A stretch of DNA of 64,000 nt from Lytechinus variegatus (lineage: Eukaryota > Echinodermata > Echinoidea > Temnopleuroida > Toxopneustidae). This document shows, piece after piece, positions 5,101 to 47,300 of this stretch. The notes below the pieces were generated by a model that made no database searches, was not told the DNA's origin, and saw only the letters and a program-made list of their open reading frames with translations. The stretch spans positions 73,987,856 to 74,051,855 of the forward strand of contig NC_054740.1 of assembly GCF_018143015.1 (NCBI RefSeq). Reading direction: 5' to 3'. The position numbers were made by a program, and so were the translations under genes. Each line of letters opens with the position of its first letter. Within the stretch, counting starts at the first letter, position 1.

Positions 5101-5900
5101 GTATTGACAAGGATCAAATACCCAAAGAGTGTTAGGGTTAAGCAATTACAATGCAAGTCATATACTACATTATTATACAACTATACACAGTGTATTTTCT
5201 TCAGCTATGAGTTGAAATTCATAGGTTTAAATCTTTTCTTCATGTTTTGTTTTGGTTATGTTTAATTTTATGATATTGTTTGTATGTTTTCTTCATTTTT
5301 TCTGCAATAGACTTGTTTCCTTATTTGGTAGTCTATTCTAAGAATGGTCCAATTCTTCATCATACTTATTCCATCAAATTGATTGAAACACTTCAAGTGA
5401 CTTTGTCTGTATAATTAATAATGTTTTTTCATCAATGAAGTTGTAATTATGATCTCTCACCATTAAGTCCAAATAACACTGAAGTCAGTGGTGACGTGAT
5501 TGCAATAAATTTGATAAAGTGTGCAAATTCTACTTCATTAAATGTGAAAATCTAACAAACACTCCTGAGCTTTTTTTTTTTTTACTGGATGTAATAGTGA
5601 TTATTGTCAGAGAGTGACTGTAGTAGCTATTTGATTCAAAGTGACATGAGCGAAGTTTTGATGTAAAATTAGTGATGGCATTAATGTGAATGATAGCATA
5701 ATTATGTTTATGGTATTATTGATGGTGATTACTGATGTTGATGATGATGATGACAATGAGAATGGGTTTGATAACGATGATTATTTTGATGATGGTAATG
5801 ACACTGAGGTAGAAGCTAGCTATGAAAATAATTGAACCATACTTGATATACAGCACTAAAATGCAAATATCTAGACTTGCAGTGTATTATATTTTCATCC
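2191..5900. other. Intergenic region between convergent genes
   Basis: 3.7 kb between the aminopeptidase stop and the stop of the minus-strand lectin gene. It holds one MITE (2925-3232), an AAT/ATG microsatellite near 3990-4030, and several poly-C, poly-A and poly-T runs (about 4500, 4720, 5080, 5570). No other coding exon is recognisable. Confidence 0.7.
2925..3232. mobile_element. Short palindromic MITE (GTATTCTGAAGTC ends)
   Basis: 308 bp bounded by GGGCCGTATTCTGAAGTC at the left and its near-perfect complement GACTTCAGAATACGGGCC at the right; GTTTAACTC/AAGTTAAACC continues the pairing inward. No coding capacity. The target-site duplication is not resolved (AAA on both sides at most). Confidence 0.8.
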
Positions 5901-6148
5901 TTAGACAGAAACCATCAAATAAGTCGTAGCCCCACGGTGTCTCTCGAAGCGTGATGATGTCCCATGCATTTCACCTAGCAAGCATAATCTTTCAGTTGGA
6001 ATAAATGCAAAAGCCGTGCACATGACGTTTGCGAGGCATCGTTGGGCACATCCGATGTGTGATGATACAGAATATGATGAATGAACGTAGTCAGCGATGA
6101 TCGTTGAATTGCTGGCTAGTAGTCTGAAATTTGTGCTTCTCGCGTATT
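5901..6148 (-). CDS. CTLD-PAN gene exon 4: PAN/apple-like module
   Basis: 248 nt ending in TAA (5903-5901). It encodes a PAN-like module with cysteines spaced C-x3-C-x5-C-x11-C: GCAQRC, LANVMC and TAFAFIPTERLCLLG. The acceptor may be CAG ending at 6149 or, three bases upstream, AAG; both keep the frame. It aligns across its length with the last exon of the neighbouring gene. Confidence 0.8.
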
Positions 6149-9100
6149 CTGCTTCAAATAGTAAGTAGTAAAACAAAGAAACATGCTTATTGGGCCTCGG
6201 AACAGTGCTGTGAAAGCCTTGATTAAAAACAGCTTTGGTGTCATGTTGGAACTCCAAAAGCTTCTATGTTCTTTGAAGGTCTGTAAGTGTACTATTCAAG
6301 AATGCCACTGTCAAAACAAACTTGATAGTTTTCAACATGTTTTTTTTCTTGGGGCGGAATTGAAAAACCCATTTCTTGAAAAAAGGATCCATTTTATCCA
6401 ATGTTCTCTTTTTTCATAAATGGCATCTTTGACTGACATCTATGATTGGGCATAACAAAATAATCCTAGAGCAGCACCCTTCCCCGCCACCACCACACAG
6501 TATTTTCCCTTTACTGTGCTTTATATCTGGTAAAATCAATATGAATATATAATAAATCATGCTTAGCTGTTCAAATACGAGTATGGCACCTAAGAATGTA
6601 AAAGAAGCTGAAAATGTATATATTTGCGTATGGTTGAAAAATAAATGCAATTTACTAATGTATTCACATGTTGGAATGAAAATTATAAAAGGACTGGAAA
6701 CGGCTGTTTTAAACAGGTATAGTACTTACCACGTTTGCCATGATAAGAGGTTGCGAAATGTGTAGTAGGTGTGACTGTCAACTTGCTTGTTGGTTGGTAA
6801 GATTTAGAGGTAAAACGACCTTCTGTGGTCCAAGATAAAGATGATCGTGGTGCAGTTGATGGTGGTGAGGAGGACAATGGAGGTGTCGCCATGGTTGTGT
6901 TGTTTGTATCATAGATAAAACCATCAGCCGTCTCCAATGGCGCGAATGTTGACATACTGGCTGGAGTCGCAGAAGAAGCACCCGTATTGGCATGTAAGGA
7001 TGCAGATGTGTCCATATTTTGGATCGTCTGAGTTGCATCAGATGAAAGAATTGAGATCGGGTCTATCGACGTTGTTCCTGTATAAAGCGTGCAAGTAGGG
7101 GTCTCTGCAGACGTATCTGGGCACACTACAATTTAAGAGCGATACAAAATATGAAATTGCCATGGCTCGACTAAACGCTATCTTTCTGCTGGTGCGGATT
7201 TGAAGATCCAGACCGGACCCGAAATGAAATTGACAAATTATATACCAATCGAAAGCTTATAAGCTACTAAATACAGCAAGGTATGCTCTATGCATTTTCA
7301 CCGCTTCCCAGCTGAGTATTTTGCTTAAGAATATTCCAATTATCTGACTTCGAACCCCGCTTAGAAAATAGGCTTTATTGTGCTTTTCACCTGCCTCGAG
7401 ACCGTGACGTCACGTTGTGTAAGAAGCGTCGCGATTCCATAGGTTTGTACACAGAAAAACTGGGTGATTTTTTGCTTTCCAGAGAACGCATTTCATTCTC
7501 TTCACTTCTATCACAGAGGTATATCTTATATATTTTTTCTAAAAAAAATTTTCTAGAATTTATGAAATCTACAGTTTTGAACTAGTTTTTGCCATATTTT
7601 ATTTCCTGCTTATTTGGCGCAGATTTCAATTCTATCTGCATTTAGATTATGTATAACAACTTTTCCTGACAGCAATTTAGGCCCAATAAGACCCAAACAA
7701 AGAAATCACAAAAAAGGTAGTGAATAGTTGTAGGTTTACAACAATTTGAACAGTGTATAATTTTGAGTGCCATTTTCATCTAAAAACGAAAAAAAAAATG
7801 GATTCATAACATGGAAATGTAAGAAAATACCCAATGCTTTTGTACACAAACCTATGGATTCACAACCCTCCAGACACAACGTGACGTCATCATTTCCAGG
7901 CGACGTGGGGGTGCTCAATCGAAGCGTACTTTGTAGGAGCAGTTTCTTTGATTTTTATTTAATATTTTTTAACTATTGGAAGGAGATATATGTAATATTT
8001 TTGGTATATTTGTATTGTATGAATCATTACCTTTATTTTGATATATGATTGTTTTTACACCGGTCAGGGTCTTTAACATTAGAATGGACGTAACTTTACA
8101 TTCAGACAAAGTGAGTGAGCAAACTCTTCGTAAACTCGCATTTGATTTCTTATTTCGATCTTCATTTCAGCCCATCTTCGGAAGAATATTTGTATAGTGA
8201 AACAAGTTTCACGAGATAACAGCAAAGAACGGGAAAAATACATGTACAGTATACACAGCCCAAGTAAATACTTCGAATTAGCAAAAATGGACTCACTGGT
8301 TTTCCTTTCGCAGATGTAACGATATAGGTTTGAGCAGATCTGGTCATACCAAGTGTAGTTCTTTGATGGTCGTATTCTGAAACAAAGGCCTCCATCATCA
8401 AATACATGTACTTCATCCATGCCATAGTTACTATATGTCACATTTGTACCGTCCGACCACACTTGGTTTCCGTTACCATCAGCAGTTAACCCTATCCAGT
8501 GGTTTACGTCGGGGTTCAGTAGATTGTCCACTACAAAGTCCTGTTCCTCAGGAGTTTCTATGGCAACCAAGTAGAGGCCGATGTCATGACACGATTGGTT
8601 TGCGTCGGAGTTGTTGGCCACACTGGTCGAGAAATAATAACAGGATCCGTTGTGTTCCACGTGGTTTGAATTGCATGCTTCGACAGAGAGGGAAAGAAAT
8701 AGATAAGCTAACGGACGGACTGAGACAAAGTGATAGACAGAAAAACAGGTGATGGAGACAGAGGGGGTGATAGGGGGTAGTTAGGGACCTGAGCCGAGAG
8801 GTTTGGCCAAAGGGGAAGGAGGGGTTGAGCGACGAGGGAAGACCAGTTCGAAGTTACTTCATGGACAATATTGGTCAAATGACCTTTCATATCTTTCATT
8901 ATGATAGGCAGATTTCAAAGCAAGATATTACGTAAGTTTGCCTTACATAGCAGGATGAAGAAATTGAATAGACCATGTGACTAGAATAGCACACCAATGA
9001 ACACTTTATGAAGGTATTTGTTGCATTCCTACTTTGAATGCATATCACAGCATGTTGCTTAATGTACTTGGCAAAATGAAATACTAGTCGTTCGTGGATG

Positions 9101-9871
9101 CATTGTTGTTTTGTGTGGATGTAAATGAAACCACAATTCAAAACAATATATGAATAATCAAGACATTAAATTTGGTGCTTATCTCATTAGATTTTTAACC
9201 ACCATGTCACTTTAGTACAAATGACCTTCCTCTGATCATGCGTAGAATCTTTTGATCATGCGCAGAAATGAACTACGAACTGGCTTATTAGCCATTATCA
9301 ATAGTGTCGTCTGTGCAGAATCGATTTAAATTTGTATCAATCATCACCAAAACAGGCGATATTTAAGTTAAAGACTGAAACGAATCGGATGCTGTTTTGC
9401 ACACTAACTTGTCTTCTTTGTTTCGTTTTTTTCTAAAGTACAATCTAAATACATTTATGGGTTTTTTCCTTTTGTATTACATTCATATATTATTTAGTTT
9501 CTTGTTCCCCTTTTTTAGAGAGCGTTCATCGTATTTGTTTTTACCCCGATTATACATTTTTTATTCATTATTCATGAAAAATGGCTTTTATCTGACAGCA
9601 AGGTATATTTAAAGGTCGGAATTAAAAAAAAGTTGTATTTATTTTTATTCATTCATATATTTATTTACTAATTTTTCTATTTATTTATTCAATTATTTAT
9701 TCATTTTGTAAAACTGATATCGCTTTCGATGTGCAAACCATTTTATTTTTATAAACGTATTCTATTTAAGTGCGCAACAATTAACTTACCCCTGCATAGC
9801 TCCTGACCATCCGATGCATGTATGAAGACGATATGGAACACACAGAGGATGAAATAAAACGTCGTATCCAT
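5901..9871 (-). CDS. Secreted C-type lectin / Ser-Thr-rich / PAN protein
   Basis: A complete four-exon gene assembled by splice phase: 9871-9790, 8677-8297, 7125-6730, 6148-5901 (1107 nt, 368 aa). Layout: signal peptide (about 1-19), C-type lectin domain (about 28-153), Ser/Thr/Pro-rich linker (about 155-287) and a PAN/apple-like module (about 290-360). All three introns are phase 1. No transmembrane segment or GPI signal is visible at the C-terminus, so a soluble secreted glycoprotein is likely. CTLDs bind sugars or proteins; PAN modules bind proteins or carbohydrate. The role is not known: innate recognition, mucus and egg-coat functions are all possible. The gene lies head to tail with the SUEL-lectin gene at 12933-19233, which has the same plan. 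Confidence 0.83.
6730..7125 (-). CDS. CTLD-PAN gene exon 3: Ser/Thr/Pro-rich linker
   Basis: 396 nt in phase 1-1, joining lectin and PAN modules. It encodes a Thr/Ser/Pro-rich stalk (for example ATPPLSSSPPSTAPRSS) with only two Cys near its start, expected to be O-glycosylated. Acceptor TTGTAG ends at 7126; donor GTAAGT starts at 6729. It takes the place that the much longer Thr/Gln mucin exon holds in the neighbouring gene. Confidence 0.75.
7390..7905. mobile_element. Palindromic element in CTLD-PAN intron 2
   Basis: Inverted arms at about 7390-7454 and 7836-7905 share GACGTCACGTTGTG and CCATAGGTTTGTACAC in opposite orientation, separated by AT-rich sequence. It looks like a MITE; exact ends and target duplication are not clear. 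Confidence 0.6.
8297..8677 (-). CDS. CTLD-PAN gene exon 2: C-type lectin domain
   Basis: 381 nt in phase 1-1 encoding one CTLD. Landmarks in order: HNGSCYYFS near the start, AIETPEEQDFV in the first helix-loop region, the family-defining WIGL, NQVWSDGTNV, GLCFRI, YTWYDQIC, and the final RYICERK. The cysteine pattern includes an extra N-terminal Cys (long-form fold). The Ca2+/sugar triad EPN or QPD is absent and the usual WND reads WYD, so classical mannose/galactose specificity cannot be assumed. Confidence 0.9.
9790..9871 (-). CDS. CTLD-PAN gene exon 1: signal peptide
   Basis: ATG at 9871-9869 opens MDTTFYFILCVFHIVFIHAS, a typical hydrophobic secretion signal with cleavage likely after HAS. 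The donor GGGGTAAGT lies at 9789. An upstream in-phase-shifted ATG six bases earlier gives no hydrophobic core, so this start is preferred. The exon is 82 nt (27 codons plus 1), the same as exon 1 of the neighbouring paralogue. Confidence 0.8.
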
Positions 9872-12800
9872 TTCATGTGAAAATTACAAATACTCTCAAA
9901 AGAATTATGACTTCAATTTTCTCGGAGGAATATTGTTTTTTATCTCCCGAGGATCGATAGCGAATATCTGAACCAGGTTAGGAATATGTTTGCAGATATC
10001 TAATGCTTTAGAATGCTTGTTTCAGTGAAATATCCTCTATATATGTGATCTAAATATTGGTAGAGAGGGGAAAGTTTAAAATGGGATTAACACCCCCAAA
10101 ATACGCTCGTCTAAAAATGACGACCTTTTAGAATAAGTATAGGATGTACCCACTGATCCGTATATTTCAGTAGATGTACCCAATTGTAGTCAAGAGATTA
10201 AATAATTACGTGACAATGCACACAAAATTGCCAATTTTGAATTCGTGTTTATGGACATTATGGTAATTGCGCTCGAAATAATTATGTTGAAGCGATTGTG
10301 ACGAACGCAATCAGCCCACGTGGTGACTTCAAATTAGTGTTCCATACATCACTGATTGCTTGTGTATTGTTTGTTTAATTGCCCATACTTATCATTACTA
10401 TAAATTATACTACACATACTGAGAAAAGTGAATCGGGTGATGAATTTTATATTCGGCCTTCATTCAAAAGATGACGTGCTGCTTTTCGCTGATCCCTCAA
10501 GTTGATTTAGATCTTTGTAATCACAGTGACTATAACCATTATTATCTGGAGTATGCGCAAAATGAAAATGTGTTGCATCCCAGAGTTTGCTAAAGGTTCG
10601 TTGCACTGTTTACTATCTCAATCATACATTCCTTAACTAAGCTTTAAATGAGCGGCAAAATATGTCCCGCTTCTTTTTATATTTATTTCTTTTCGTATTC
10701 GGGATAGGCGTATAAAGCAAGTAATTAGTCACGTTTTGAGTTCAGTGGATAGAAAAATTATCACTTCCTCGGGGTGATTATATGCACTAGTGCAGTCATT
10801 TTAGATTATGGAAGTAGCTAGATATTATGTTGTCTCAGCGAGATATTAATATTATTTTAGTTCAGGTATGGTCGTATAAAATGGGGGCGGGAAGGGAGAC
10901 GGTTCTGCCCCCCCCCTCGGTTTTTTACTAGCTTATTTAATTTCATTGGGGGGGGGGCACAAAAGTACACCCCAAATGTGTCCACAGACCCCTCAATTAA
11001 GTCTTCATACTAAGCATATTCTTAAGAAAATCCCGCATATGGTGATGACATCAGGAATTTTGTCAGTGACAAACATTGAATTAGTAATTTAAAATTTCAC
11101 ATCGACATGTGTATGGTTGTAATTCATCTGATTATGTTTATATACGTTGTGTAAGCAGCTATTGCGTAAATATATGGATACAAATGTGAATCAATTGTAT
11201 AATGAAAAAACAAGGAGACGAGAAAAACATAAATTGAAAGACCAGAATAAATATTCAACAATAAGGAGTTGATTTCGAGAATGATTTATTTTGTACCCAT
11301 AATCAAAACGCATAATAGTGAAGCTGGGTTTTTTCCTTTTTTTTTTTTTTTTAGATAAACGATTATCCCTTACATAATTCAAGTGATTTGCAATCCGAAA
11401 AGTAATTTCTTACATAATCATAATTAAGAATTTTAAACTAGACGTGTTGTCTACAGCACTGGGTACTTTGCCGATATAAGGCCAGGGTGCCCTTTTGAAA
11501 ATTTGCATTTTTCATGTAGTAAACAGTCTCAAACTCTGGATTCTTCTCATAAATAGCAACATTCATGTCAGTATCCAACAGAAATTTGTACAAAAACACC
11601 AAAATTCTTGAATTAAAAAAATAAGAAGAATATGGATGATATGAGAAGGGTTATGTTATAAGTCTGTAGACAAAGTTGTAACAGACCGGTCCGGACGATA
11701 GCCTCTTTGAAATAGCTGTTTGAAGGTTAAATTAAAGTCAAAATTTTGTGAAACTAATCTGGGGCCAGTTAAAAAAACCTTAGCAATGTTTAGAACAATT
11801 TTAATGATTAATTTCATTGAATACAATGTACAAACAATTGTGAAAATCGCTAACCTTTGTGTAAAGGGACGCTGAATTACCACCCCCTTTCGGCAAGGGG
11901 GGGGGGCTAGGGACAAAGGATTACCCCCTGCAATTCTATTCTGGTCGTAATATCATTATTTACCAAAAAAAATTGTTGGGGTTGATTTGTTAGGGGGTTG
12001 AAACCCTGTGACCACCTCCTGCGTACAAAATGTGCTTTAAAAATATTAAGGGGGTTTGAACCCATGTAACACATCCCCTCCCCCCCCCCTGCGTAAACCC
12101 CTGCTAAACATGGTAAAAATTACTTGTACTATTGCACTGCAACACATCTCTGCATATAATTTCTGGAAATAAAAAAAACATGGCAATTATTGAATTTGAT
12201 ATAAAAGGTTGGGTTTCAAGAGAGCGAACTCAATAAACCGAGAAATTAAATAATTTTCAACCCATTTTCAAAGTAAATTTTTATTTTCCAAAATAACTTT
12301 TCGTAATGGAGCTAGTACATATAATGTTTCTAATGCTATGACACTCCACGACCACGACATTGTTATGAATTTCGGAACACGTGAGGAGAAGAAAAATGTA
12401 CACATGCAATAAGTTTCATCTTTTATCAGTCCGTTGATAACTGCATTTTCGGTGTCAATAAATCCATATACACAAGTTCGCTGTTATTAAGGGTTTAATT
12501 GATTTCTAATATCTACAGATATTTCAAAACAAGGTCTCTTTTTCGACTTAAAGCAGTCACAAAAAGTAGCGAAGTTGCCCGGCAGAGGTGATATATCTCA
12601 CGAATGGCGGAAGAGGCAAACCGTAGAGAATGTAACACGTTTCAACTACGCGCAACTAGAGGCAAGTCGTTTCATTCGCTTTCCCTTTTTGTAAGTCACG
12701 TATACGCTGCTCCATTGCCAAGAAGAGTTCAGTTTGGATTGTAGATTCGTTCTTGCTCATCTTAGATTTTCCGATATGTGTTTTTTTTTTTTTTTTTTTT

Positions 12801-12932
12801 TAAATGATCCTCATCCCCACACACATGACACACTTATATCAATTTATATAAGGAACTGGCTAATTCGTTCATGTCGTATTCTTTCACATCCATCCTTTTC
12901 TCTTGATCTAAAATCCATGTGGATTCGAACTT
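9872..12932. other. Spacer between the two lectin-PAN genes
   Basis: 3.1 kb between the start codon of the CTLD gene and the stop codon of the SUEL gene, so it should contain the promoter of the CTLD gene. No further exon is recognised. It has G/C homopolymer runs at about 10900-10960, 11890 and 12070 and poly-T near 12780. Confidence 0.6.
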
Positions 12933-13171
12933 TTACAAATTAAGCTCGCTTGAATAGGTCTTAGCCCCCTGGTGTAGTTGAAGCATGTTCAGGGCTGAAT
13001 GCTCGCCTATTAAGCACAATCTATCACTTTTGATGTATGTGAAAGCAGGACACGAGGCCTCATCGAAGCATATTTGACTGCACTGGATGAATGACGTCAC
13101 ACCAGGGAGTGCGTATGAGGCATCGAGTGCGGCGTTGTCTGCAAGAAGCCAGTATCTTCTGAATATCTTAT
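12933..13171 (-). CDS. SUEL-mucin-PAN gene exon 4: PAN/apple-like module
   Basis: 239 nt ending in TAA (12935-12933). It encodes YWLLADNAALDASY, then QCSQIC, FDEASC and PAFTYIKSDRLCLIGE, with cysteine spacing C-x3-C-x5-C-x11-C identical to the other gene, ending in TYSSELNL. Acceptor TTGCAG ends at 13172. The module is too short in this frame to be noticed as a long open frame; it was found by splice phase. Confidence 0.85.
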
Positions 13172-16100
13172 CTGCAATTGAAGTAAATCACACACATTTA
13201 ATACAACGACACTTATTCATGGTATGGTATTACTGATCAATTAATCAGTATGGTCGGAAAAGATTTTTTTTTAAATCGTGGTACGGATGCCACATATCGC
13301 ATTTTATACCCTTTTAGATGTAACAGGGAAATAAACAACAAATATACTTGTTAGGTCCATGTTGAAATTAATTCTCGAAAAAGGATTTTAAGTAAAAAAT
13401 TGTTCCTTATTATTCTTACATTTTTATTTTGTTTTCTTGGATGCAAAACCAGTTTAAAGGTGCTTCAACCAAATTTAGCTTATGTTGTAACACCTTTGTA
13501 TGTTCATTATTTACTTGTGTTTTATATATATTTATATATTATCTGTGTATTTTTTTACATTGTACATTGTGAACATGCATGAATAAATAAATAAATAAAT
13601 CATATCCAATTGAGCAAGGCCCAATGAGTAATACGATACAGGAGCCTTTCCCTAGGAATACCCCCTCAAAAAAAACACAACAGAAATCAGCTTTTAGCGG
13701 AAGATTATAGAATATCGATGAAAATATTTTCCGCCTCCCCCGATATTGGCGAATGCTTGATCCGCCCCTGCCTTTGTGTGATCCTGGCATGGCGTGAATT
13801 ACATGGAAAAATTGTTATATTTTGGTTTAAGTTTCAAACTTACATTTTGATGGCAATTTTCTCTGCGTTGCTCTTGCTTGATATATTTCTGCGGTCCCTG
13901 ACGTTGTCTGTCGTCCGATTGATGAATAATGCGTCGTCGTTAGCTGCTGTATTTGTGTTGTTGATGGCTGCGTCGTTTGCATTAACAGTGTTGGGGTTGA
14001 TGGCTGCGTTGTTGATTTTTGTGTTGTGCTTTGTCGTGCCGAAGACTGCGTTCTTGTTTGCTGCTGCGTCGTTTTTTCTTGCTCTGATGTAGTTTGCTGA
14101 TGGTTTGTTTGTTGCGGTTCTGATGTTGTTCGATGTTTCGTTGATGCTGACGAATGTGATGTCGTTTGTTGTTGCATTGACGATGAGAATAACTGCGTTG
14201 TTCGCTGATGTATTGTGGTTGATTGTTGCATTTGTGATTGTTCCTGCAATAATGTCGATGCATGCATTGTTTGCTGTTGCGTTGAAGTCGATGGCCACGT
14301 TGTCGTTTGATGTTGTGTCGACGTCTCCTCATGCTCTGTTGCTATCACTGTTTCCATTGTTGTTTCTTCATTTGTTGTTAATCTTTCCGTAGAAATTTGC
14401 TGCTGCAATGTTGTCAAGGGTTGCAGTGTAGTTTGCAGAACTACTGTTGTTGATGGCTGTGATGTTTCTTTCGTTCCTATAGATGTATGAGGCGGGGTTA
14501 TTGTTGTTTCTTTATTCACTGTTGTTGATGGCTGTCTTGTTTGCTGCTGGTTTGTTGTTGAAGGTTGCGTTGTTCTTTCTTTATTTGATGATGAAATCTG
14601 CGTTGTTGACTGCGGCTGTGTTGTTGTTGAAGATCTAACTGTCGTTTGTTGGTGACTTGTTCTTGGTGGATGTGTTATGAGTTGCTGCTGCGATGTTATT
14701 GAGAGCTGGGTCGTTGTATCTTCATTTTGTTTTGATGTCTGAGTTGGCGTTTGCTGCTGTGTTGTTGTCTCTTCATTTACCGTTGACGTCTGCGTTTTCG
14801 TTTGTTGCTGTGTTGTTATTGATGGATGTATTGTAGATTGCTGTTGTGTCGTAGTTTGGGATGGTTTCATTGATGTATCTTCATTTGATGTTGTTGTTTG
14901 TTGCTGTGTTGTTGTTGGCAAATGTGTTTCTTTATTTACTGTTGATGTCTGCGTTGTTTGGTCACGTGTTGTTGATGATCCAACTGTCGTTTGTTGCTGT
15001 GCTGTTGTCGATGGATGCGTTTTAGGTTGCTGTTCCGGTGTTGTTGAGAGATGAGTCGTTGTATCTTCATTTTGTTTTGATGTCTTTAATGACGTTTGCT
15101 GCTGTGTCGCTGTCTTTTCATTTTCCGTTGATGGCTGCATTGTTGTTTCTTGATATGATAAAGCTTCAACTGTCGTTTGTTGCTGAGTTGTTGTCAATGG
15201 ATGCGTTGTAGGTTCTTGCTGTGGTGTTGATGGTCGCGTGACTGTTTCTATATTTGTTGTTGATGTCTTTGTTGTTGTTTGCCGTTGTGCTGTTGAAGAT
15301 CCAACTGTCGTTTGTTGCTGTGCTGATCTCGATGGATGCGTTGTAGTTAATCGCTGTGTTGTTACTGGGGTTTGTGTTGTTGTGCCTTTATTTGTCGTTT
15401 GTTCCTGCGTTGCTGTTGTAGATGGATGCATTGTAGGTTTCTTCTGCGGTGTTGATGAGGGTTGCATTGTTGTTTCTTTACTTGCGGTTGATGTCTGTTT
15501 TGTTGTTTGCTGCCCAGTTGTTGTTGAAGGGCCAAACGTTGTTTGCTGGTGCGTTGCTGTTGTAGATGGATGCGTTGTAGGTTGCTGTTGTGGTGTTGTT
15601 GAGGATTGCGTTGTCATTTTTCTATATGATGTTGATGTCTCCGGTGTTGTTTGCTGCCCTGTTGTTGTTGTTAAAGGGCCTACCGTCGTTTTCTGTTGCG
15701 TTGGTGTTGTAGATGGATGAGTTGTAGTTTGCTGTTGCGGTGTTGATGGTTGCGTTGTTGTTTCTTCATTTGTTGTTAAAGGGTCCATCGTCGTTTGCTG
15801 TTGCGTTGGTGTTGTAGTTTGCTGTTGCGGTGTTGATGGCTGCGTTGTTGTTTCTTCATTTGTTGTTAAAGGGCCTACCGTCGTTTGCTGTTGCGTTGGT
15901 GTTGTAGGTTGCTGTTGCGATGTTGATGGTTGTGCTGTTGTTTCTTCATTTGTTGTTGATATATGCGTTGTTTGCTGCTGTGTTGTTGTTGATGGTGCCT
16001 TCATTGTAGTTTGCTGCTGTGTAGTAGTTGGTGGTATTGTTTGGGCTTGCGCTGTTGTCAGTGTCGTACCTCCTGAATGTGATGCCAAAATGAAACAAAA

Positions 16101-19100
16101 ACATATATAAGTAGATGATATACTTTGAATCAAATCTTCATTGCCATGCAATTGAATATATCATTTTTGTTTTTGCTATGCATTGATTTAAATAATACCG
16201 GCTCCGTCCCCGTGCCGTCCCCCCCCCTACCAGTATTCACTTGTTGAGAGACAATATAATAATCAGGTATTTGACATCTTAAGCCTTACTAATTAATCTG
16301 ATTATGTTGACAGTTTATTTTTCAATCTAAGTGGTCCGACATAAAAGGGGTGGACCGGCCTGAAAATATTTATATCTTAATACATAGAGTAGAATTTACT
16401 CAGCAAAATAGCATAAATTTCATCAAAATCGGATAAGAAAGTTATTTATTGTTAAAGTTTAGCAATATTTGTGAAAACAGTCGTCATGAATATTCATTAG
16501 GTCGGCTGATGATGTCACATCCCACTTGTTCTTTTGTATTTAATTGTTACATGAAATTCGGTTTATTCCATTTTTTATCCTCCAAGAACTAGAAAAATTG
16601 GATTGACAACTGATTTAGTGCATTAGATATTTATTGCTGCAACTTATTTCATTATAAGGAAGACGTATTACTCACACAAGTATGAAATAATGAAAAAAAA
16701 TGATTTCATGTAATAACATAGGAAATTGGAGGTGGAGATGTGACATCATCAGCCCATCTAATGAATATTCATGACGACTGTTATCACAAAATATTACTAA
16801 ACTTTAAAATTCAATAACTTTGTTATTTGTTATCCTATTTTGCTCAGTTAATTCGACTCTATGTATTAAGATATAAATATTTTCAGCCCGGACCATCCCC
16901 TTAACTGTTTATGATTGTGGTGGGTATTGTTAGGAGTACAGATATTTTTTTCACCGAATCTTCAAACCAAAGAAGAGATCTATTTAATGTGTGCAAAAAA
17001 GGTGTATATTCATGGATCATAATGTTATTAACAATATGTTCATCTCTCCATTACCTGTCATTCGTGTTTTTATTATTAATATGTCATCATTATTAATAGT
17101 TGTAGTCGAAGTATAGTATCATTATTATTTTCTATATTCTCTTTATTATTATTGTTGTTATCATTATTAAAGTGGTGGTAGTAGTAGTAGTAGTAGTTGT
17201 AGAAGTATCTTCAAGATTGACATCATTCCGTTATGTGATTGGCGAAATGGAATATTAAATCGTACAGTAAAAACAAATAAATAAATCTTCAACGTATATG
17301 CAATTACCTATACATATGTAATTAACTTCTAGGTATTTTTCGACTCCGCTGCAAGGATCTCCAAAGACTTCATTATCGGCTTCAATGGCACACGTAATGT
17401 GGCCACTGCAGGATGCGGTCAGGAGAGAGGTTACGTCTGAAACACAATTAGTACTGCGACTCTGACCGCAGGTTTCTGAATTAGTTCGTCCATAGTTAGC
17501 TGTGGAGATGATGATGATGCCATCGCCGCAGTCGATCGCTCCGGAATCACGTTCACATAGAATGAATGTTAGTTCTGAATGAGAGGGAATTCAAGCATGA
17601 TTGAAAAATCTATCGCTCTCGTAGTTTGTAGTTTCATAGTTTCAGCATATATTTATTTCAAATATTTTCATTGTATGCGCTTTGGGCCTTCCGGAAAAGT
17701 GCCGTATAATAAGTATTTTTATATTACTATTATTATTGTTATTATCATATACAATTGAAACTTCAATATTCATAAACCAACAATATGAAATGAAGAATCA
17801 GTGTTTCTTCTCTCATAGCATTTTCTGCTGTTGATGACTCATTCAATAAGCGCAAAATTTTGAAATCCACGCAAGAAAATGAAGACTAAAGTCTTTGGTT
17901 CATAATCCTCAATAAGATAAAGCAGGCATTTTATTGTAATTGGTCTCTTTTTCCGCACGCAACACGTCCTGGAAATCTGGTAGGTATTATTAAAGGCAGA
18001 AATGTTATGAAAATGAACATTTTTAAGGAAAACTTCTTATTTTGTCCTTGTCAAATTTCTCCGGACCGAAACCACCTTTATTTTGGATTGAAAGCTTTTT
18101 TTTCTTTTTGCTTGTAAAAATCACTACAGCACCCCAACTCAAAAATCGTTCCCAGGGCCTTGGTGGCTCGTAAGAATACAACCAAAAAATGTTTACGTTA
18201 AGTTTAAATCTGAAAACACCCTTTTTCATCAATAGTGAAGCGGGCATGATGGCTCAGTGCTAGAGCACCCGCTTTGTGATTTTATTATACCAAAAATCTT
18301 GAAATTTCCGGGGTTTTTTTTAATCAAAACTGGCACTCAGACACAAAGTTACATGTAGTGTTTAGCCAAAGGCCAACAATTTTCATCGATAATTTTGATA
18401 TACAGACCTTTTCACAAGACAATGGCGGACATATTCAATATTTTGTTGTTTCTGGCATTTGTCTAGTGACAAAAAATGCAATGGACATTTGGATCTTTAT
18501 TGAAAATGGGTGCTTTTGAACTTTCTACACTTATTTTGTCCATGGCATGATAGTATGGTGTGAACGGTGTAAGGATTAGCGGGAAAGTATAGGTTATTTT
18601 TTCTTGGGTATATAGGCTTAAATATCCTAATACATGTATTTCATTAAAAATCTTGCTTTCTCGGCAAAGAACCGTGTATGGACTTGAGCTGACACTATTT
18701 CAAAGTGACTTTAACTTTTAAAAAAAAAAGATTTTCCTTATTCCAATTCAACAATCTAAAAAAATATGTTACAAAAATACAAACAAGCAAGGATTATGAA
18801 TAGACAAATAAAGGCGTTACATAATATGAGGACCCCTTGGTAGACCAGCAGCACCATGATTGATGCTGCTGAGTAGGGCCATCCTCCCATTTCCATAATA
18901 TATGAATTCACATGTTTCATTTTATATATATTGTTGTTTGGTTTTTAACGGAAATGAATTCAATTCAATTCAAATTATTTTACGATAAAAATGTGAAGAT
19001 TTGGATTATCTACAACATGAATTAATACTAAATGGTCCTTTACATTATGCATGCCAATAATTAACCCCACCCCTATATGACCACCCCCCCCCCCCCCCTC

Positions 19101-19233
19101 CATCATTAAAAACTTTTCAGACTGTAACTGAGAGTGTGGACCATATCTTACCAAATATTGGAAGTACAGCAATTCCACAAAGACATACATGTACGTTGAA
19201 CAGCACGAAAATGCAGTATTGTAGTATTCCCAT
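12933..19233 (-). CDS. Secreted SUEL-type lectin / Thr-Gln mucin / PAN protein
   Basis: A complete four-exon gene assembled by phase: 19233-19152, 17574-17308, 16072-13844, 13171-12933 (2817 nt, 938 aa). Layout: signal peptide (about 1-22), SUEL/rhamnose-binding lectin domain (about 28-117), Thr/Gln/Ser-rich repeat region (about 118-858) and C-terminal PAN-like module (about 862-930). All introns are phase 1. SUEL domains bind galactose or rhamnose; the repeat region should be heavily O-glycosylated and extended. No membrane anchor is seen. It shares its frame, first-exon length and last exon with the CTLD gene downstream, differing in the lectin head and in mucin length. Likely a secreted mucin-like lectin; the tissue role is unknown. 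Confidence 0.85.
13844..16072 (-). CDS. SUEL-mucin-PAN gene exon 3: Thr/Gln-rich mucin repeats
   Basis: A single 2229-nt exon (phase 1-1) with no stop over 742 codons, made of degenerate repeats such as TTTQQQTT, NEETTTQPST and HPSTTTQQQTTVGPS. Cysteine is absent until the very end (KCKF near the donor). Thr is the dominant residue, then Gln and Ser: a PTS-type mucin stalk with Gln where Pro is usual. Acceptor TTCAG ends at 16073; donor GTAAGT starts at 13843. The DNA is a GTT/TGC-rich tandem repeat, so length is probably polymorphic and assembly collapse is possible. Confidence 0.85.
16345..16900. mobile_element. TTAA-type MITE, family 1 copy b
   Basis: 556 bp within intron 2 of the SUEL-mucin gene. 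Ends are AGGGGTGGACCGGCCTG and CAGCCCGGACCATCCCC; TTAA at the right (16901-16904), ATAA at the left. Arms include GTCGGCTGATGATGTCACAT and its complement around 16735, as in the copy at 1316. Confidence 0.8.
17308..17574 (-). CDS. SUEL-mucin-PAN gene exon 2: galactose/rhamnose-binding lectin domain
   Basis: 267 nt in phase 1-1 encoding a whole Gal_Lectin (SUEL) domain of about 88 residues. Diagnostic motifs appear in order: LTFILCERDSGAIDCG, IIIISTANYGR, the paired Cys run SETCGQ..TNC, the Cys pair in ASCSGHITC, ADNEVFGDPC, and GVEKYLEVNY followed by IC. ANYGR and the FGDPC..KYL core are the most conserved family features and are intact, so sugar binding is likely preserved. Confidence 0.93.
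18239..18290 (+). repeat. tRNA-like head of a SINE or tRNA fossil
   Basis: GGCATGATGGCTCAGTGCTAG followed by AGCACCCGCTTTGTGA resembles the acceptor, D-arm and anticodon arm of a tRNA, with a good box A (TGGCTCAGTGCTAGAGC). No T-arm follows within the expected distance, so it is not a functional tRNA. Confidence 0.4.
19152..19233 (-). CDS. SUEL-mucin-PAN gene exon 1: signal peptide
   Basis: ATG at 19233-19231 opens MGILQYCIFVLFNVHVCLCG, a secretion signal; donor GTAAGA begins at 19151. 82 nt, leaving one base (G) that the next exon completes to Glu. Phase and length equal exon 1 of the CTLD gene, which supports this otherwise short call. Confidence 0.75.
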
Positions 19234-29371: not shown

Positions 29372-32300
29372 CTGTAGTTATTCATTAATATACATGAGAG
29401 AAAGGCCTTGTATAAGTATTGTATAAAAAATATGATAATTTGTCATGACAAAATCATTTACTAAAGTGATTCAAATTGTTCAAGATATGTGTCTTTTGTG
29501 TGTAAGATATGACGATGTTCCGTTGTTTTGCAAACGGAGCAAATAAAATCCGAGACGCTGCCGAGTGCAGTCAGCAGAAAGTTAACCATGTTAACTGTTT
29601 AAACAGGTTAGGCTGGAGTTGTTTTGAGAATATCTCACCATTTTTTACTATGATTCAAGTAAGACTTCTCGACAATCATGCCATTTCATAATGCCCGATA
29701 CACATGAAGCCTATTATATGCGATGATTTTCAAAGACTTTCAAATAAAACAGAATACTGCTACCCGAGCTCTTACCATCCTATGTTTTCTCCCTCTTCCA
29801 TCGTCTCTGGTATTTTCTTGCCTCTGGTTTCGGGAAGGAAGTAGGAAAGTGCTGCCCCAACTATAGCAAAGGCTCCAAATATCACCAGGGGAAATGGAAT
29901 CCACACATCGGAAAGAAGAAGGATCAGTGGGGCGAGGGTGTTGGACATGTTTGAACAAAATGTGCACATACCAAGGGCAGAGTTCCTGGAATGAAGAACA
30001 TTTGTACATGAACATGATATATAACGACTGAAAGAATAATAAGTTAATGATATGATTATGATAGAGCTATCGCTTTTGGGAATTTTACAAATGACAAGTT
30101 TAACGCATGATTAGTTTGTGCAGAACATGGTTTATCTTTTGTAAAATTACTTAGAAGCGAGTGTAGCGGATATTGGAGGCAAGAGCTCCAGCCACCACTT
30201 ACAGGGAGTGCATAAAAAGGGCAAAAAAGAAGAATGAATAATCAATATGCCTACTAGAGAGTTGAATCTGAAAAAGGAAAGGGACGTGGATTTCATAGCA
30301 CTTGTTGTCAAAGGCCTTAGAGATGCTCATAGGGCTAAAGTTATCACTGACTTTAGATTTTTTTTCAACAAATGAGAGAATAGCATGAGATTTAAAATGG
30401 TTTTGGTAGAATCCAAATTGAAAGTCCTAAATTATATTATAATTTCTCCAAGAAATTTTAAAGTCTGTTTAGATCACCCAACCACCATTTCGTTGTCATC
30501 GTACAATTTGAATAGATAGATAATTTGAAGATGGATGTTTCATAAAGCTGTTTGTATAATAAGAGCGACTTAAAGAACGACTGGTGAACCTTTTGAACGT
30601 TATAAATCATCACCAATGAGCATTTGGCGTTTACCACAATAATACTGATATTACACTTGCACGATTTTGGCCCCGACTAGTTGCGACATGTTCACGCATT
30701 GAATCTTGGCAAGTAAGTTCCTTGTCGTGGAGTGTGCGAGCTACAATGCTTGAAGTGTTGTGCCCCCCCCCCAAAAAAATCTAAAATTCTGGCACGAAAC
30801 ATTTCGGGATTATTGGCGTGAACTATTTGTAAACTGACAACCTCGTCTGGCCAAATTGTGCCTAAGCACGAGTGGCACACATTCCACGACAAGTTCACGA
30901 AAGGTTTATATCTAATTTACGACTCTTAACGACAAGTTCACGACTAGCTTATGAATAGGTTACGTTTTCCCGCAAATATCAGAATTGCTCGCCTAAAAGG
31001 CATACGCATGCGCAGTTTGGCTATAACACACGACAGTTCATGGAGTTCGATTTTATGCTCCAGAGAATGATGATGAATGGAATGACGTGACAGTGCGTGA
31101 CCCCTATATCGAACTTCAATTGGGCGCTCCTACATTGTAGGTGAGACATCATTTCGGCTCCCCCTATGTACGCCCCTGGTTAGAACATAAATTCGACCCC
31201 CTTTGGTTGAATATCAATTCGGTGCCCAGTTGTCGAACATCACTTCGGCACCCTCTAGGTCGAGCATCAATTCGACGCCTCTCTTCTAGGTCGGACATCA
31301 ATTCGGCACCCCGAAGTAGAACATCAATTTGGCGCCCCTATGTCAAACACCAATTCGGCGCCCCCTAGTTCAAACATAAATTTGGCGACCCCTATATCAA
31401 ACTTCAATTGGACCATCCTAGGTGAAAAATCAATTCGGCTCCCCCAATATCGAACATCAATTGTGCGCCCCTAGATAAAACATAAATTAGGCTCCCCGAG
31501 GTTGAACATCAATTCGGTGCCCGTATGTCGAATATCACTTCGGCACCCTCTAGGACGAGCATCAATTCGACGCCCCATATATCGAACTTCATTTCGTCGC
31601 CCCCTAGGTCGAACATCAATTCGGCGCCTCTGTGTCGGACATCAATTCGGCGCCCCGAAGTAGAACATTAATTTGGCGCCCCTATGTCGAACACCAATTC
31701 GGTGCCCCCTAGGTCAAACATAACCAAGGATGTGCTTAGTGTCTCGCATTGTCAAGAATTTGCACGGTAGAATCGTTGCATTGCGGGAACTTCAAATCTT
31801 GCAAATGTAATAGCAGCATCAGAAAGGGTCACCAGTCGTTCTTGAAGTCGCTCATAACTTATAAACAGCTCTATGAAACACTCACCTGGTTATAGAGGTG
31901 TGATAGTGTTAAGGGTCTCTGTTTCAAAATGGCTGTAATGAAACGATGTATTATTTAACATTATATGTAAATGCAATTACGGAATTAAGAGTCGATATAT
32001 ATATATATATATTTATTTAATTATTTATTTAATCATATCATTCTACTCAGTAATGACTATGTTCTTAGTCATTGACAACTAAAATAGTTTTAGAAAATGT
32101 TACTCTAAAACTAAAATGGGAGTTGCATCCAGTTGATCCATATATATACGTTTCTTGTGGGACCCCTATTTTAGAAGAAGGATTATGTTATGAAGGGAGA
32201 ATTACCTGACGGGAGTAGGAATAATCTCACAAGCGTGAAGGTAGACTACGCAGAAGGAAGACGTAATGGCAAACTTGCCAATCATCGCCACCGCGGCCCG

Positions 32301-35300
32301 TCCAATGCCATACGCTATAAAGCAAACAGAATGATTAATTACTTCATTGGTTTTAGGAGGGGGACGACCCCCCAAAAAAAAATAAATTAATAAATAAATG
32401 ATCACTTTTTTTTGCTCGTCAACAAAATTTGGTGGTCCCCCTAATTTTTTTGGCTTCCGCCGCCAGTGCCTTCATGATTGATCATTGTTGTTTTAGCGTT
32501 TAGTGATTGCGATAAGAAAGACGTCAGATTTTTATACAATGCTTTATATTCAGTATTTAAGTTACAACCACAATACAAAGTTTACGCCATTTAACACGTT
32601 CAAGATGTCCTGTTCAATAACACCATACTATTATTGCGAATTCTTCCATTGAACTCCTTTCCACCTTCATAATTATGGGGCGTGCCGCAGTGCTTTTGCA
32701 ATGGACCCTATTTTAGAGAAGTGTGTAATGTAATGGCCCATCCACTCATTGTGTCTATAAACATGGTAATCAATTATTATATTTTGTTGGTCGTAGATAT
32801 TATCTACATGAATAATCTTTTGGCATACGTATATGCATTGTAGGATGAATGAATTGGATTATAAACTTACGAATGAAAATTGTTGTCAATATCGCGACTC
32901 CACACAGGATCATGAAGAAGATATAAACCGGTCTTCTACCCCACCTCTCAATGGGATAGACAAGGCAAAAGCAAGCAGGGATCTCAACAGCACCCGCGAT
33001 AGCGAAAGCTATGTATTTGTTGACTCCAAGTTGATCGGTGCTAATCGATATTCCGTAATACACTACCGTGTTAACGCACCTGTAGATGAGAGTAAAGAGT
33101 AGACGGTAGTTAAAGTGATAATAAACAGTTGGTGATAGCAGAGAGTAGATGATCATATAAATTAAGCAAAATTGATTAGGCCTAAAGTGATGTGACAAAA
33201 CATAATTTGGATATAGCCATCTCTCAGAAGCAGAGGGAAGATAGCGCCTACACATTGCCGAGTATCATCCATTTAAACAAGAAGTTGATTATATATCTAT
33301 ATATATATGAAATATAAATTAAAACTGAAATAGTGGATAAACTCGGGTAAAGCTAACGAACATAAATGTCTACTAGATATATATATATATGTTTGCTTTT
33401 TGCCTATGAAATTTTCGTGCTTTTACATGATGCTAGAAACTGTATACTTACAGTTGAAACATGATGTTTACAGTGTAGAGCCGTAAGCGAGGTCTGCGGA
33501 GCAATTCAATCACGCCCTGTTTTCCATTTCCTTCGACTTTCTGTGCAAAAATGGAGTAGTCAAGGTTAGAAATACTGGATGAAAAGGGTAAACATTACTA
33601 TTTGTCAAAAACAGTAGGCTAAATATATTAAGCACTTGACTATTATCAGAGTTGATTTGAAAGAAAGATGACAGGATGGGAACCATGGACCATACAGTGT
33701 ATGGAGGCATTAAACGCGCTATATTATGGGTACCAAGGAGGGAATGGAGAGAATTCTACGTAGATATATTAATGGCTTGAGGATAATACAAAACATATTC
33801 ATTCTCAATTGATGAATTAAACTCACTTTGGGGTCATCTTATTATATCATATATATCATAGCCCCTTCAGAATCAACTGAACAGATATTCAAAGAGATCA
33901 ATGGAGAGGCTAAGGGAACGAGAGAGAGGGAGAGAAGAGACACGCAGAGAGAGAGGGGGAGAGGTACAGAGAGAGAAGGGGGTGGAACAATTATCGACTT
34001 ACTATGTCAGCTTCAACATCATCCAAATTAAATGTCTCTTTGATTGTGACTCCATTGACCTTTCCTAATCTTCTCATGACCTTAGTTGCTTCCTCAACAC
34101 GACCCTTTGACAACAACCAACGTGGGGATTCAGGAGCGAGCCTTTTAACAAATACAGATTTTAAATTAAAAATCATTACTTGATATACAGTATAGACATA
34201 AACAGATCTATGATTGATATGGATATTCAAGATAATAACAATCAAATTATTAGTAAGGTTCTATAGTGAATTAGAAATCCCGATTTTTGACGAAATTTGC
34301 TGGTTATTCTTTAAAATTGTCTTGATGATCAGCTTAAAAAATATCGATCACAGCTATTCTTGGCACACTACTTCATATTTATCTCCGGTATAATCAGGAG
34401 TCAAAGTGGGAGGGGTGGATAGAGTGCCCCCTTTGATATTTTTTAATCCAAATTTTTGCCTTTCAATGTCCATGGCTGACCGTAACCCATTGCTTATGAC
34501 AAGTGGAACGCCTCTGGCAGTCTAGCCTGCATTGCGCAATTTAATATAGCAGCAGTACTAACTTTGAAAACTACTATAGAATAATCATTCACAAAATCAC
34601 CATTCATACAATGACAAAATACCACGTTAATTGACCATAAATTACACATTTGAACAATGACCTAAGAATTTTTCTTTGTATTTGATTATATAAAAATATG
34701 AACAATTCCGTCTTTAGTAATAAGTTATTTATCAAATCAACTCTTGATTAACTTACTTTTTATTGTACATCCGATTTCAATGACACTTCAGGTTAGGCTC
34801 GTTTATTATTTCTTTTGAATAATTTAAGTCGCTGAGGTGTACCTGGCCTTAAAAATGCCAAACAATGATTCATTACTCCCATTTGGATGTTTCTCCAGCC
34901 CCTACCGAATACCAGCACATCAGCGGGAATAATCAAAGAAGGAGGGGTTTCTTACACGTAAATGATGAGAAGAACCGCGGGTAATAAAGAAACAATCAGC
35001 TGCAGGTGACGCCAATTCCTGATGTAAAATGCGAAGAGGGACAATGTCATGTAGCCTACTGCAAAGTGAACCCATATCACGTTACCAGCAATGGCTCGCT
35101 TGGAAGGACCTATCATTTCATTTGCTGAAAAGGGGGGAGACATAGAGACATGTTCCATTGTATTAATCATTAGTAACCTATGAAATTCATGATTTTACTC
35201 TTTTTGGCCTTCTCTCAATTTTTTTCTCAAGAGTGTATGACTCCTGTTAACTTTTTTAAAAATATATATTTACAAAAGAATGCTTTATTTCAAACCCTAC

Positions 35301-44300: not shown

Positions 44301-47300
44301 TGCTATAAATTAAATGTTTTTAAGTAATGCTTTACTAACATTCCCAATTGGGCCAAATTCTTTAAAAGGCGAAGTGATTTATTTGACCATGGAATATGAA
44401 CCCAAATGGGATTCTAGGTTGGATAACAAGTGAGTTATATCAATTTTCAGTGAATGACGGCCATCTTGGACGCCATCCTGGACGCCATCTTGAAAATAAC
44501 TACTTTCCCATATGCGGATTTTGGTAGATTTTAGTATGTTATTCCTGAGGTCAAATAGTACAAAAAACCGTTGAAAAATCATTTGTTGCAATTTGTTCCG
44601 GGTCAAACCATAATATTGACCCGTCTAAATATAGAGAATAGCAGCAGAGTCCGTGGAAAATTATGTTATCCACAAGGTCTAACAAATGTTGGACTAATTC
44701 TCCGCTTGTCTAATAACACATGGGCTTAACCCATTTTGATCTGCTAATAATTTGGTCTAATATATACTTGGTCTCATTCTCGTTTGGTCTAATGACCAAA
44801 TCTTCTGATTGCAAAATAGTTTAATTGCATTTGCAACTCTACATGACCTGTTTTGTTTGTTTGTGAAATGGGGCGACAATCTGTGGTACCCCATCCTCCA
44901 AAAACTGTCGCCTAAATGAGGCGACAATTCGTTCAGGGGTGACAATATTGTGGTGTCGAATTGTGCACAAAATTTTGGTGCAACAGACGTGGCTAATGTG
45001 CTTATGCAGTACTACCTCATCTCGTTGTTGCTGCCCCAACGCACCCATTGGCAGACATCAAATAAAAAAGTATCTATGTAGAAATGTCTAAAGTGTTGAA
45101 TTCAATGAGCATTTTCGTTTTATTTCCGCTGTTAACTTACGTCCTGCTCCACGGTCCTTTCAGCTCCATGGGTGTCATAATACCAACCAGCATCGCAGGA
45201 GATTTCATTGGTTCCATAAAGACTGAGATCTGGGCTAAAATCAACTCCACTGATATTATATCGTCTACAAGATGAATAAACCTTTGTTTTAGTATCATCA
45301 GTGTAGTTCCATGGGATGCCAACCTCTCTCTTTGCAAGAGCACATTCTCTTGATGTGTTAAATCCATAGCTTCCACAATCGACAGGATCCCAGTCTGGTA
45401 TCTTAAAACAAAACGCATTTACCGGAAACTAAACGTTAGTTTTAAGATCACTTATTGTTTTTTTGCTATTGGTATTACTATTATTATTATTCTCATTACT
45501 ATAATCACCGTCGATATTATTATATTGCAGTTATTTCTATTTTAATTCAATTGTTTATATTTGATTACGGAAGGTGTTTCTAAGGTTATTTAGAGGGGTT
45601 GTTACAACCGATAATGTCGCACCAACGCATAATGGCGTAGTTTTTCTAACGCATAATGTCACATGCCGCAACGCATAATGTCACAGCGGTATTTTCTTCA
45701 GGACTCGAGCTACAGATAACATATAAATCATGCTTTCACTTAGTATTTTGAGACACGAGAAAGAGAATTAAATTATTTGGATATCAGGATTACTCTGTGT
45801 ATGGATATTTATCGGTTTATTGCCATTTCGTCTACTGCCTTTTTCCCCACTATCGCATGGTCTGATATGATATCATTTCGTCTACTATTAGTCAACTATC
45901 AACAGAGTCCAATAACCATTTCGTCTAACTACCATTTCGTCTAATAGCCAGTTGGTCTGATAGCCGTTTTGTTTATCATCATTTAGTCATTTTTTTACTT
46001 GGTCCAATATCATTACGTCTATTACCTTTTGGTCTTTTAGCCAATTGGTCTAATAACCACTTGGTGTACTCTCATTCCGTCCATGTTCAATTTGGTCTAA
46101 CTTCAGTTGGTTCGCTATCACTTTGTCTAAACCCATTTCGGCTAACAATCATTTGGTATTGTTGCTATGGGTTCAATCACCCGTTCTATGACAATTACCT
46201 CCCGGACAATCACCCTTCCGGACATTCCCCCCTGACAATTACCCCCTGGACAATTACACCCCTGAGGACAATTACCCCCCGAGGTCAATTACCCCCTGGA
46301 CAATTATCCCCTGGACAATTACCTCCCGGACAATTAGCCCCCTGGACAACTACCCCCCGAGGACAATTACCCCCTGGACAACTACCCCCGAGGACAATTA
46401 CACCCAGGACAACTGCCCCCGAGGATAATTACCCCCTGAGGATAATTACCCCCGGACAATTACCCCCTGGACAACTACCCCCGAGGACAATTACCCCTAG
46501 GACAATTACCCCTGAGTTATTTACTCCCCGGACAATTACCCCCTGGACAACTACCCCCCCCCTCGAGGACAATTACCCCCCCCCCCGGACAATTACCTCA
46601 GGTGTAATCCTCGGGGGTAATTGTCCTCGGGTGGTAATTGTCCTCGGGGGTAATTGTCCTCAGGGGGAAATTGTCCTTGGGTAGTAATTGTCCTCGGGGG
46701 TAATTGTCCGGGGGTAATTGTCCTCGGGGGGGATTGTCAGGGGGTAGTTGTCCGGAAGGTGATTGTCTGGGGGGTAATTGTCCTATAACCAGTGATAGGA
46801 CCTATTAGTGATTGGACCCATGGCAACGATACCAAATGATTGTTAGCCGAAATGGGTTTAGACAAAGTGATAGCGATCCAACTGAAGTTACACCAAATGG
46901 AACATGGACGGAATGAGAGTACACCAAGTGGTTATTAGACCAATTGGCTAAAAGACCAAAAGGTAATAGACGTAATGATATAGGACCAATTGAAAAAAAT
47001 GACTAAATGATAATAAACAAAACGGCTATTAGACCAACTGGCTATTAGACGAAATGGTAATTAGACGAAATGGTTATTGGACTCTGTTGATAGTTGACTC
47101 ACTAATGGTAGACGAAATGATATCATAGCAGACCATGCGATAGTGGGGAAAAAAGCAGTAGACGAAATGGCAATAAACCGATAAATATCCATACAAAGAG
47201 TAATCCTGAATTCCAAATAATTTAATTCTCTTTCTCGTGTCTAAAAATACTTAGCGAAAGCATATTTTGTATGTTATCTGAAGAAAATACCGCTGTGACA

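Follow-up and report, generated by a model that had tools for sequence, protein, structure and literature searches.

A sea urchin gene pair with C-type lectin-like and SUEL heads on homologous PAN tails: candidate members of a family of secreted mosaic proteins

Mosaic extracellular proteins of animals are described as arising, in general, by class 1-1 exon shuffling (PMC8001218). PAN modules are assigned a role in protein or carbohydrate binding, and the nematode lectin survey groups proteins with a C-type lectin-like domain (CTLD) and a CW/PAN module as class IV, with 16 members in C. elegans (PMC5297725). The survey of rhamnose-binding lectins (RBL) lists the PAN module, the C-type lectin domain and F5/8C as companions of the SUEL domain; it also presents the rhamnospondins of Hydractinia, which diversified by duplication and for which immune recognition was proposed (PMC3269628). 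Adhesive proteins of sea urchins include Nectin with six discoidin domains, an alpha-tectorin-like protein with five SUEL domains and a small protein with a C-type lectin domain (PMC10057474). Here we analyse a stretch of 64,000 nucleotides of the Lytechinus variegatus genome (contig NC_054740.1, positions 73,987,856 to 74,051,855; hereafter the window). Its minus strand carries side by side two four-exon genes with predicted products of 368 residues (gene 1, with a CTLD) and 938 residues (gene 2, with a SUEL domain), both ending in a PAN domain. We estimate at about three in four the probability that both genes are members of one family of secreted mosaics that consist of signal peptide, head, an optional Ser/Thr-rich stalk and a C-terminal PAN and arose by class 1-1 exon shuffling, with gene 2 as a SUEL chimaera.

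The joined exons of both genes are open and end in one terminal stop each. AG..GT is present at every internal junction and all introns (6/6) are in phase 1; the modules of both genes are bounded by phase-1 introns at the domain borders, the arrangement of class 1-1. All four domains scored over their Pfam cut-offs: Lectin_C in gene 1 (55.9 bits, cut-off 22.6), SUEL_Lectin in gene 2 (65.2 bits, cut-off 31.4) and PAN_1 in both (27.0 bits in gene 1, 24.6 bits in gene 2, cut-off 21.4). A preliminary description of this DNA had proposed two adjacent minus-strand genes in the order signal peptide, lectin, stalk and PAN, with six phase-1 introns and with a C-type lectin in one gene and a SUEL lectin in the other; the open models with correct coordinates, the phases and the domain scores bear this out. 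Its equal first exons of 82 nt hold as a length counted from the ATG, not as the true exon length: a 3' splice site adjoins the ATG in gene 2, none does so in gene 1. Since this site lies directly before the ATG, gene 2 is likely to have an exon of 5' untranslated region, and its real first exon is probably located further upstream.

Relatives were searched for in the genome from which the window comes (33 contigs, 869,567,369 bases). With the PAN exons as queries 26 matches (gene 1) and 24 matches (gene 2) were obtained at E ≤ 1; the best 19 of the 26 gene 1 matches are treated as the PAN subfamily, 15 of these 19 are present in alignment A1. The PAN exons of genes 1 and 2 aligned with a Smith-Waterman score of 128, compared with a maximum of 46 in 1000 shuffles, and judged by this alignment they are true homologues beyond doubt. 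The profile of the PAN matched the solved structures of TgMIC4 (4a5v, 1.7e-9) and factor XI (6.8e-7). The cysteine spacing C-x3-C-x5-C-x11-C occurs in 15/15 aligned PANs of the subfamily and in 1/8 generic PANs of the same genome. Being present in the whole subfamily, it is a mark of the subfamily rather than of the pair; the identical spacing pointed out in the preliminary description is thus real in both genes, though not specific to them. In alignment A1, some members of the subfamily possess an additional cysteine pair (CSC and one more cysteine about five residues past the fourth). This pair is absent from both PANs of the window, from the discoidin PANs, from the PANs at C8:38268 and C8:40517 and from the two PANs at C1:85.5M.

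Upstream of the best 19 of 26 PANs, the heads were CTLD in 15 cases, discoidin in two and SUEL in one (gene 2), with one PAN lacking a recognised head. The 15 CTLD exons were located 1.0 to 4.9 kb upstream of their PAN on the same strand (limit 8 kb), in eight separate places; in the control direction, a CTLD within 8 kb downstream was present for 5/19 PANs and came from neighbours in clusters. A crude expectation from uniform placement amounts to about 0.008 CTLD-PAN and 0.005 SUEL-PAN pairs. The discoidin-headed PANs at C16:1.31M and C2:63.15M follow an F5/8 type C domain of three exons (Pfam 89.4 and 89.1 bits). A downstream PAN at a distance of up to 40 kb was observed for 1/36 SUEL places, that of gene 2, the sole SUEL chimaera in this set; on C17, two SUEL places are preceded by a generic PAN at a distance of about 32 kb. 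These places are the best 58 of 106 matches for CTLD and 36 of 51 for SUEL, where 14 additional domains from C4 genes already counted and one match below the cut-off were set aside. For discoidin, 10 of 120 matches entered the neighbourhood count, and the remaining 110 were checked only by eye, against the positions of the 19 PANs. The lists hold the best candidates, hence all family counts are lower bounds.

The exon anatomy of the pair recurs in this family. Other members inspected had phase 1 in 4/4 CTLD donors and 3/3 PAN acceptors. Ser/Thr-rich frames separate CTLD and PAN in both genes at C1:85.5M and in 2/3 genes at C15:3.7M. No such frame of at least 60 residues was detected between CTLD and PAN at C8:38.27M, nor one of at least 55 residues between discoidin and PAN at the C2 and C16 loci, shorter ones being open to oversight; some members seem to have no stalk. 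The frame of signal peptide, head, stalk and PAN is, on the predicted exons, common to the family and not only to the pair, and gene 1 is an ordinary member of the CTLD-PAN family. The CTLD outnumbers the other heads by a wide margin and may be ancestral. Some loci of the family had peculiarities of their own. Two similar blocks of CTLD-PAN genes, C8:38268550-38294545 and C8:40517619-40546738, lie about 2.25 Mb apart with nearly identical PANs at C8:38268 and C8:40517; they represent either a recent duplication or two assembled haplotypes. At C16:1.31M, an open frame of 488 residues (L052 about 5239-6700) between the discoidin exons resembles by eye a reverse transcriptase of a long interspersed nuclear element. 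The Ser/Thr-rich stalk region of the CTLD-PAN gene at C1:85526439-85529300 consists of a short unit repeated many times, and its length may vary between individuals.

Table 1. Exons of the two predicted genes in the window
Feature	Position in window	Strand	Content and basis
Gene 1 exon 1 (from ATG)	9790..9871	-	Signal peptide; 82 nt, donor gtaagt, phase 1, hydrophobic leader
Gene 1 exon 2	8297..8677	-	C-type lectin-like domain; Pfam Lectin_C, phase 1 at both ends
Gene 1 exon 3	6730..7125	-	Ser/Thr-rich stalk, 131 residues, 38% S+T; composition, junctions
Gene 1 exon 4	5901..6148	-	C-terminal PAN and stop codon; Pfam PAN_1
Gene 2 exon 1 (from ATG)	19152..19233	-	Signal peptide, 82 nt; 3' splice site abuts ATG
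Gene 2 exon 2	17308..17574	-	SUEL / rhamnose-binding-lectin domain; Pfam, PDB matches, motifs
Gene 2 exon 3	13844..16072	-	Thr/Gln/Ser-rich stalk, 742 residues, internal tandem repeats
Gene 2 exon 4	12933..13171	-	C-terminal PAN and stop codon; Pfam PAN_1, homologous to gene 1 exon 4

The heads of the two genes are unrelated: between the lectin exons no similarity was detected, 860 of 1000 shuffles scoring as high. The SUEL exon of gene 2 matched solved rhamnose-binding lectins with E-values of 9.4e-41 (5h4s) and 3.6e-30 (CSL3; PDB 5h4s, 2zx0). It encodes eight cysteines, the YGR motif as ANYGRTN and the DPC motif as DPCSGVEKYL, with V and E at the places of T and Y in the published consensus (PMC3269628). 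The stalks differ as well. In gene 2, the stalk is mucin-like in composition and repetition, with 43% Ser and Thr, 19% Gln, no cysteine and tandem repeats of 51, 90, 105 and 144 bp; for the stalk exon of gene 1 a repeat array was not reported. The gene 1 stalk begins with x-Cys, as do those of the C1:85.5M genes; the gene 2 stalk does not. Calcium-dependent sugar-binding C-type lectins have EPN or QPD and WND motifs. EPN, QPD, WND, QPN and EPD were not found in the CTLDs of gene 1 and nine other family members (0/10).

Several observations weigh against the assignment to one family of lectin-headed mosaics. The CTLD of gene 1 is devoid of the canonical sugar motifs; for this reason a lectin role of gene 1 appears doubtful, and 'lectin' is here a name by homology only. 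The term sugar-binding in the preliminary description fits the SUEL domain of gene 2 with its YGR and DPC motifs and is doubtful for gene 1. The predicted structural model of the PAN was weak (mean predicted local distance difference test score 61.3), and a Foldseek search with this low-confidence model yielded 0/91 matches at E ≤ 0.001; the PANs of SML-2, TgMIC4, HGF and plasminogen were among the first 16 matches, all weak. For the PAN at C14:30.13M no head was recognised in the 10 kb examined; of the 52 frames there that stay open for 40 residues or more, two were put to Pfam and the others read by eye. Seven weaker PAN matches (E 0.005 to 0.7) lie outside the head count, at least one of them, C1:77578781, also with an upstream CTLD match. 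The arrangement of SUEL, stalk and PAN is a single instance in one genome. Finally, the exon joins of both genes are predicted only, and the low-complexity stalk of gene 2 could be open by mere composition, so SUEL, the Thr/Gln-rich stretch and PAN might not form one transcript. We regard such an artefact of the gene model as improbable, because every junction fits consensus and phase, the stalk is an open exon of 742 residues, the same exon order exists in other family members and no alternative tail candidate was seen for the SUEL exon.

Given a family of mosaics with gene 2 as its SUEL chimaera, the origin of this chimaera can be explained in two ways. The preliminary description had proposed a duplication followed by replacement of the lectin exon. 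In the strict form, gene 2 would have arisen as a tandem copy of gene 1, its CTLD exon being exchanged for a SUEL exon through recombination within phase-1 introns and the rest of the frame being inherited. The genes are adjacent on the same strand with the same plan. The best genome match of the gene 2 PAN is the gene 1 PAN (43.3 bits, next 39.0), and the identity of the two is the highest in both PAN trees (37% and 36%). The reverse search is less favourable, however: four matches exceeded gene 2 (43.7 bits) for the gene 1 PAN, i.e., C8:38268550 (46.6 bits), C8:40517619 (44.9), a PAN on C16 (44.3) and C8:38277098 (44.0). The sister relation of the PAN exons anticipated in the preliminary description was recovered in neither tree, but a forced union of the pair was not rejected in the approximately unbiased (AU) test (p 0.314 and 0.353). 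The same holds for a clade of the gene 2 PAN with the two discoidin PANs (AU p 0.236) and for all four PANs together (AU p 0.403). About eighty residues are too short to resolve these trees, 9 of 18 inner branches being open in the first and 6 of 9 in the second. Further evidence against the strict duplication comes from the signal exons, which are dissimilar (a score as high as theirs was reached in 305 of 1000 shuffles), from the DNA outside the exons, where comparison of the two loci gave no convincing match (best E 0.09), and from the x-Cys start of the stalk that gene 2 does not have in common with gene 1. The equality of the 82-nt starts carries little weight, since in two further members of the family the candidate signal exon measures 73 nt and likewise ends in phase 1. 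Thus the unrelated heads, homologous PANs, class 1-1 exons and position as neighbours on one strand agree with a duplication and exon replacement, whereas a duplicated pair is not shown, and we put this origin forward tentatively.

Alternatively, a SUEL gene beside gene 1 could have gained its PAN exon, and perhaps the stalk too, from one of the PAN-tailed genes. The rarity of PANs behind SUEL domains in this genome speaks for such a capture, as does the closest SUEL relative at C2:29.40M (52% identity), which has no PAN in the 2.3 kb examined downstream, and so does the dissimilarity of the two genes in their signal exons and stalks. Against it, no PAN-less SUEL gene remains beside the locus, the direction of the transfer is unreadable from a single genome, and the relative on C2 was seen in part. 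We put a capture of the tail forward as tentatively as the replacement of the lectin exon. Three features were discarded as signs of a common descent of the pair: phase-1 introns are general in shuffled extracellular modules (PMC8001218), the equal starts are a count from the ATG, and the cysteine spacing of the PAN extends throughout the subfamily.

For the family of secreted mosaics the following working is conceivable. Gene 1 has the family's usual CTLD-like head, and in gene 2 a single-exon SUEL lectin would have come to occupy the head position on the family's PAN tail. Both proteins would be secreted. In gene 2, rhamnose- or galactose-type glycans are the putative ligands of the SUEL head, as suggested by its motifs, and the long, probably O-glycosylated stalk may keep this head away from the tail. 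The PAN tail might be the protein contact common to all members, either for assembly with other copies or for docking to a shared partner. In a bolder version, which we offer as a speculation with less than even chances, one dedicated C-terminal PAN tail serves as common docking or assembly module for exchangeable heads, CTLD in many, discoidin in two and SUEL in one case, and genes 1 and 2 are neighbours that exhibit this exchange, so that a single downstream partner would be served by two ligand specificities. If the tail is such a shared docking module, echinoderm recognition proteins would diversify by head exchange on a constant tail. The gene 2 locus lends itself well to the question of whether such chimaeras stem from an exchange of heads or from the capture of a tail.

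Elsewhere in the genome, the minus strand of C17:9829410-9913079 contains six SUEL, five CTLD, five F5/8C and two generic PAN matches interleaved in 84 kb. All four modules are thus combined here in a cluster or in one large mosaic gene; the PANs of this region were not among the matches to the PANs of the window. In the window itself, 32800-33264 on the minus strand matched Pfam Sugar_tr with 23.8 bits (cut-off 22.3). The minus-strand segments 29772-30110 and 45132-45428 had no Pfam match over the cut-off; by eye they resemble parts of an SLC22-type transporter.

Compared with the described systems, the nematode class IV proteins share the combination of CTLD and PAN, but their PAN is of the CW/PAN_3 type (PMC5297725), whereas the sea urchin tail scores as PAN_1 and also occurs with discoidin and SUEL heads. 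Gene 2 resembles the SUEL superfamily in the use of SUEL as a module; the text of the survey names no bearer of both SUEL and PAN, nor a stalk or a neighbouring CTLD-PAN gene (PMC3269628). The rhamnospondins of Hydractinia are likewise secreted and combine a serine-rich region with a single-exon RBL domain, but they have thrombospondin repeats in place of the PAN and the RBL domain is C-terminal instead of N-terminal (PMC3269628). The adhesive proteins of sea urchins are secreted and built from the same kinds of heads, and 'PAN' appears nowhere in the main text of that study (PMC10057474). The apple/PAN lectins of Apicomplexa, TgMIC4 and SML-2, gave the best matches among solved structures, confined to a core stretch of about 31 to 48 residues; unlike in these lectins, there was no sign here that the PAN binds sugar. 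A sea urchin CTLD with a PAN domain or a rhamnose-binding lectin with a PAN domain was not found in the openly licensed literature searched, which is a weak absence. The preliminary description knew of no such family. This is too wide for the parts, as CTLD-PAN proteins and SUEL with PAN are in print according to the surveys cited above, and it stands for the side-by-side arrangement, which was not found in the literature searched. The single modules and most of their pairings are already known; new, as far as our literature searches reach, are a SUEL-stalk-PAN gene beside a CTLD-stalk-PAN gene and three kinds of heads on one PAN subfamily in one genome.

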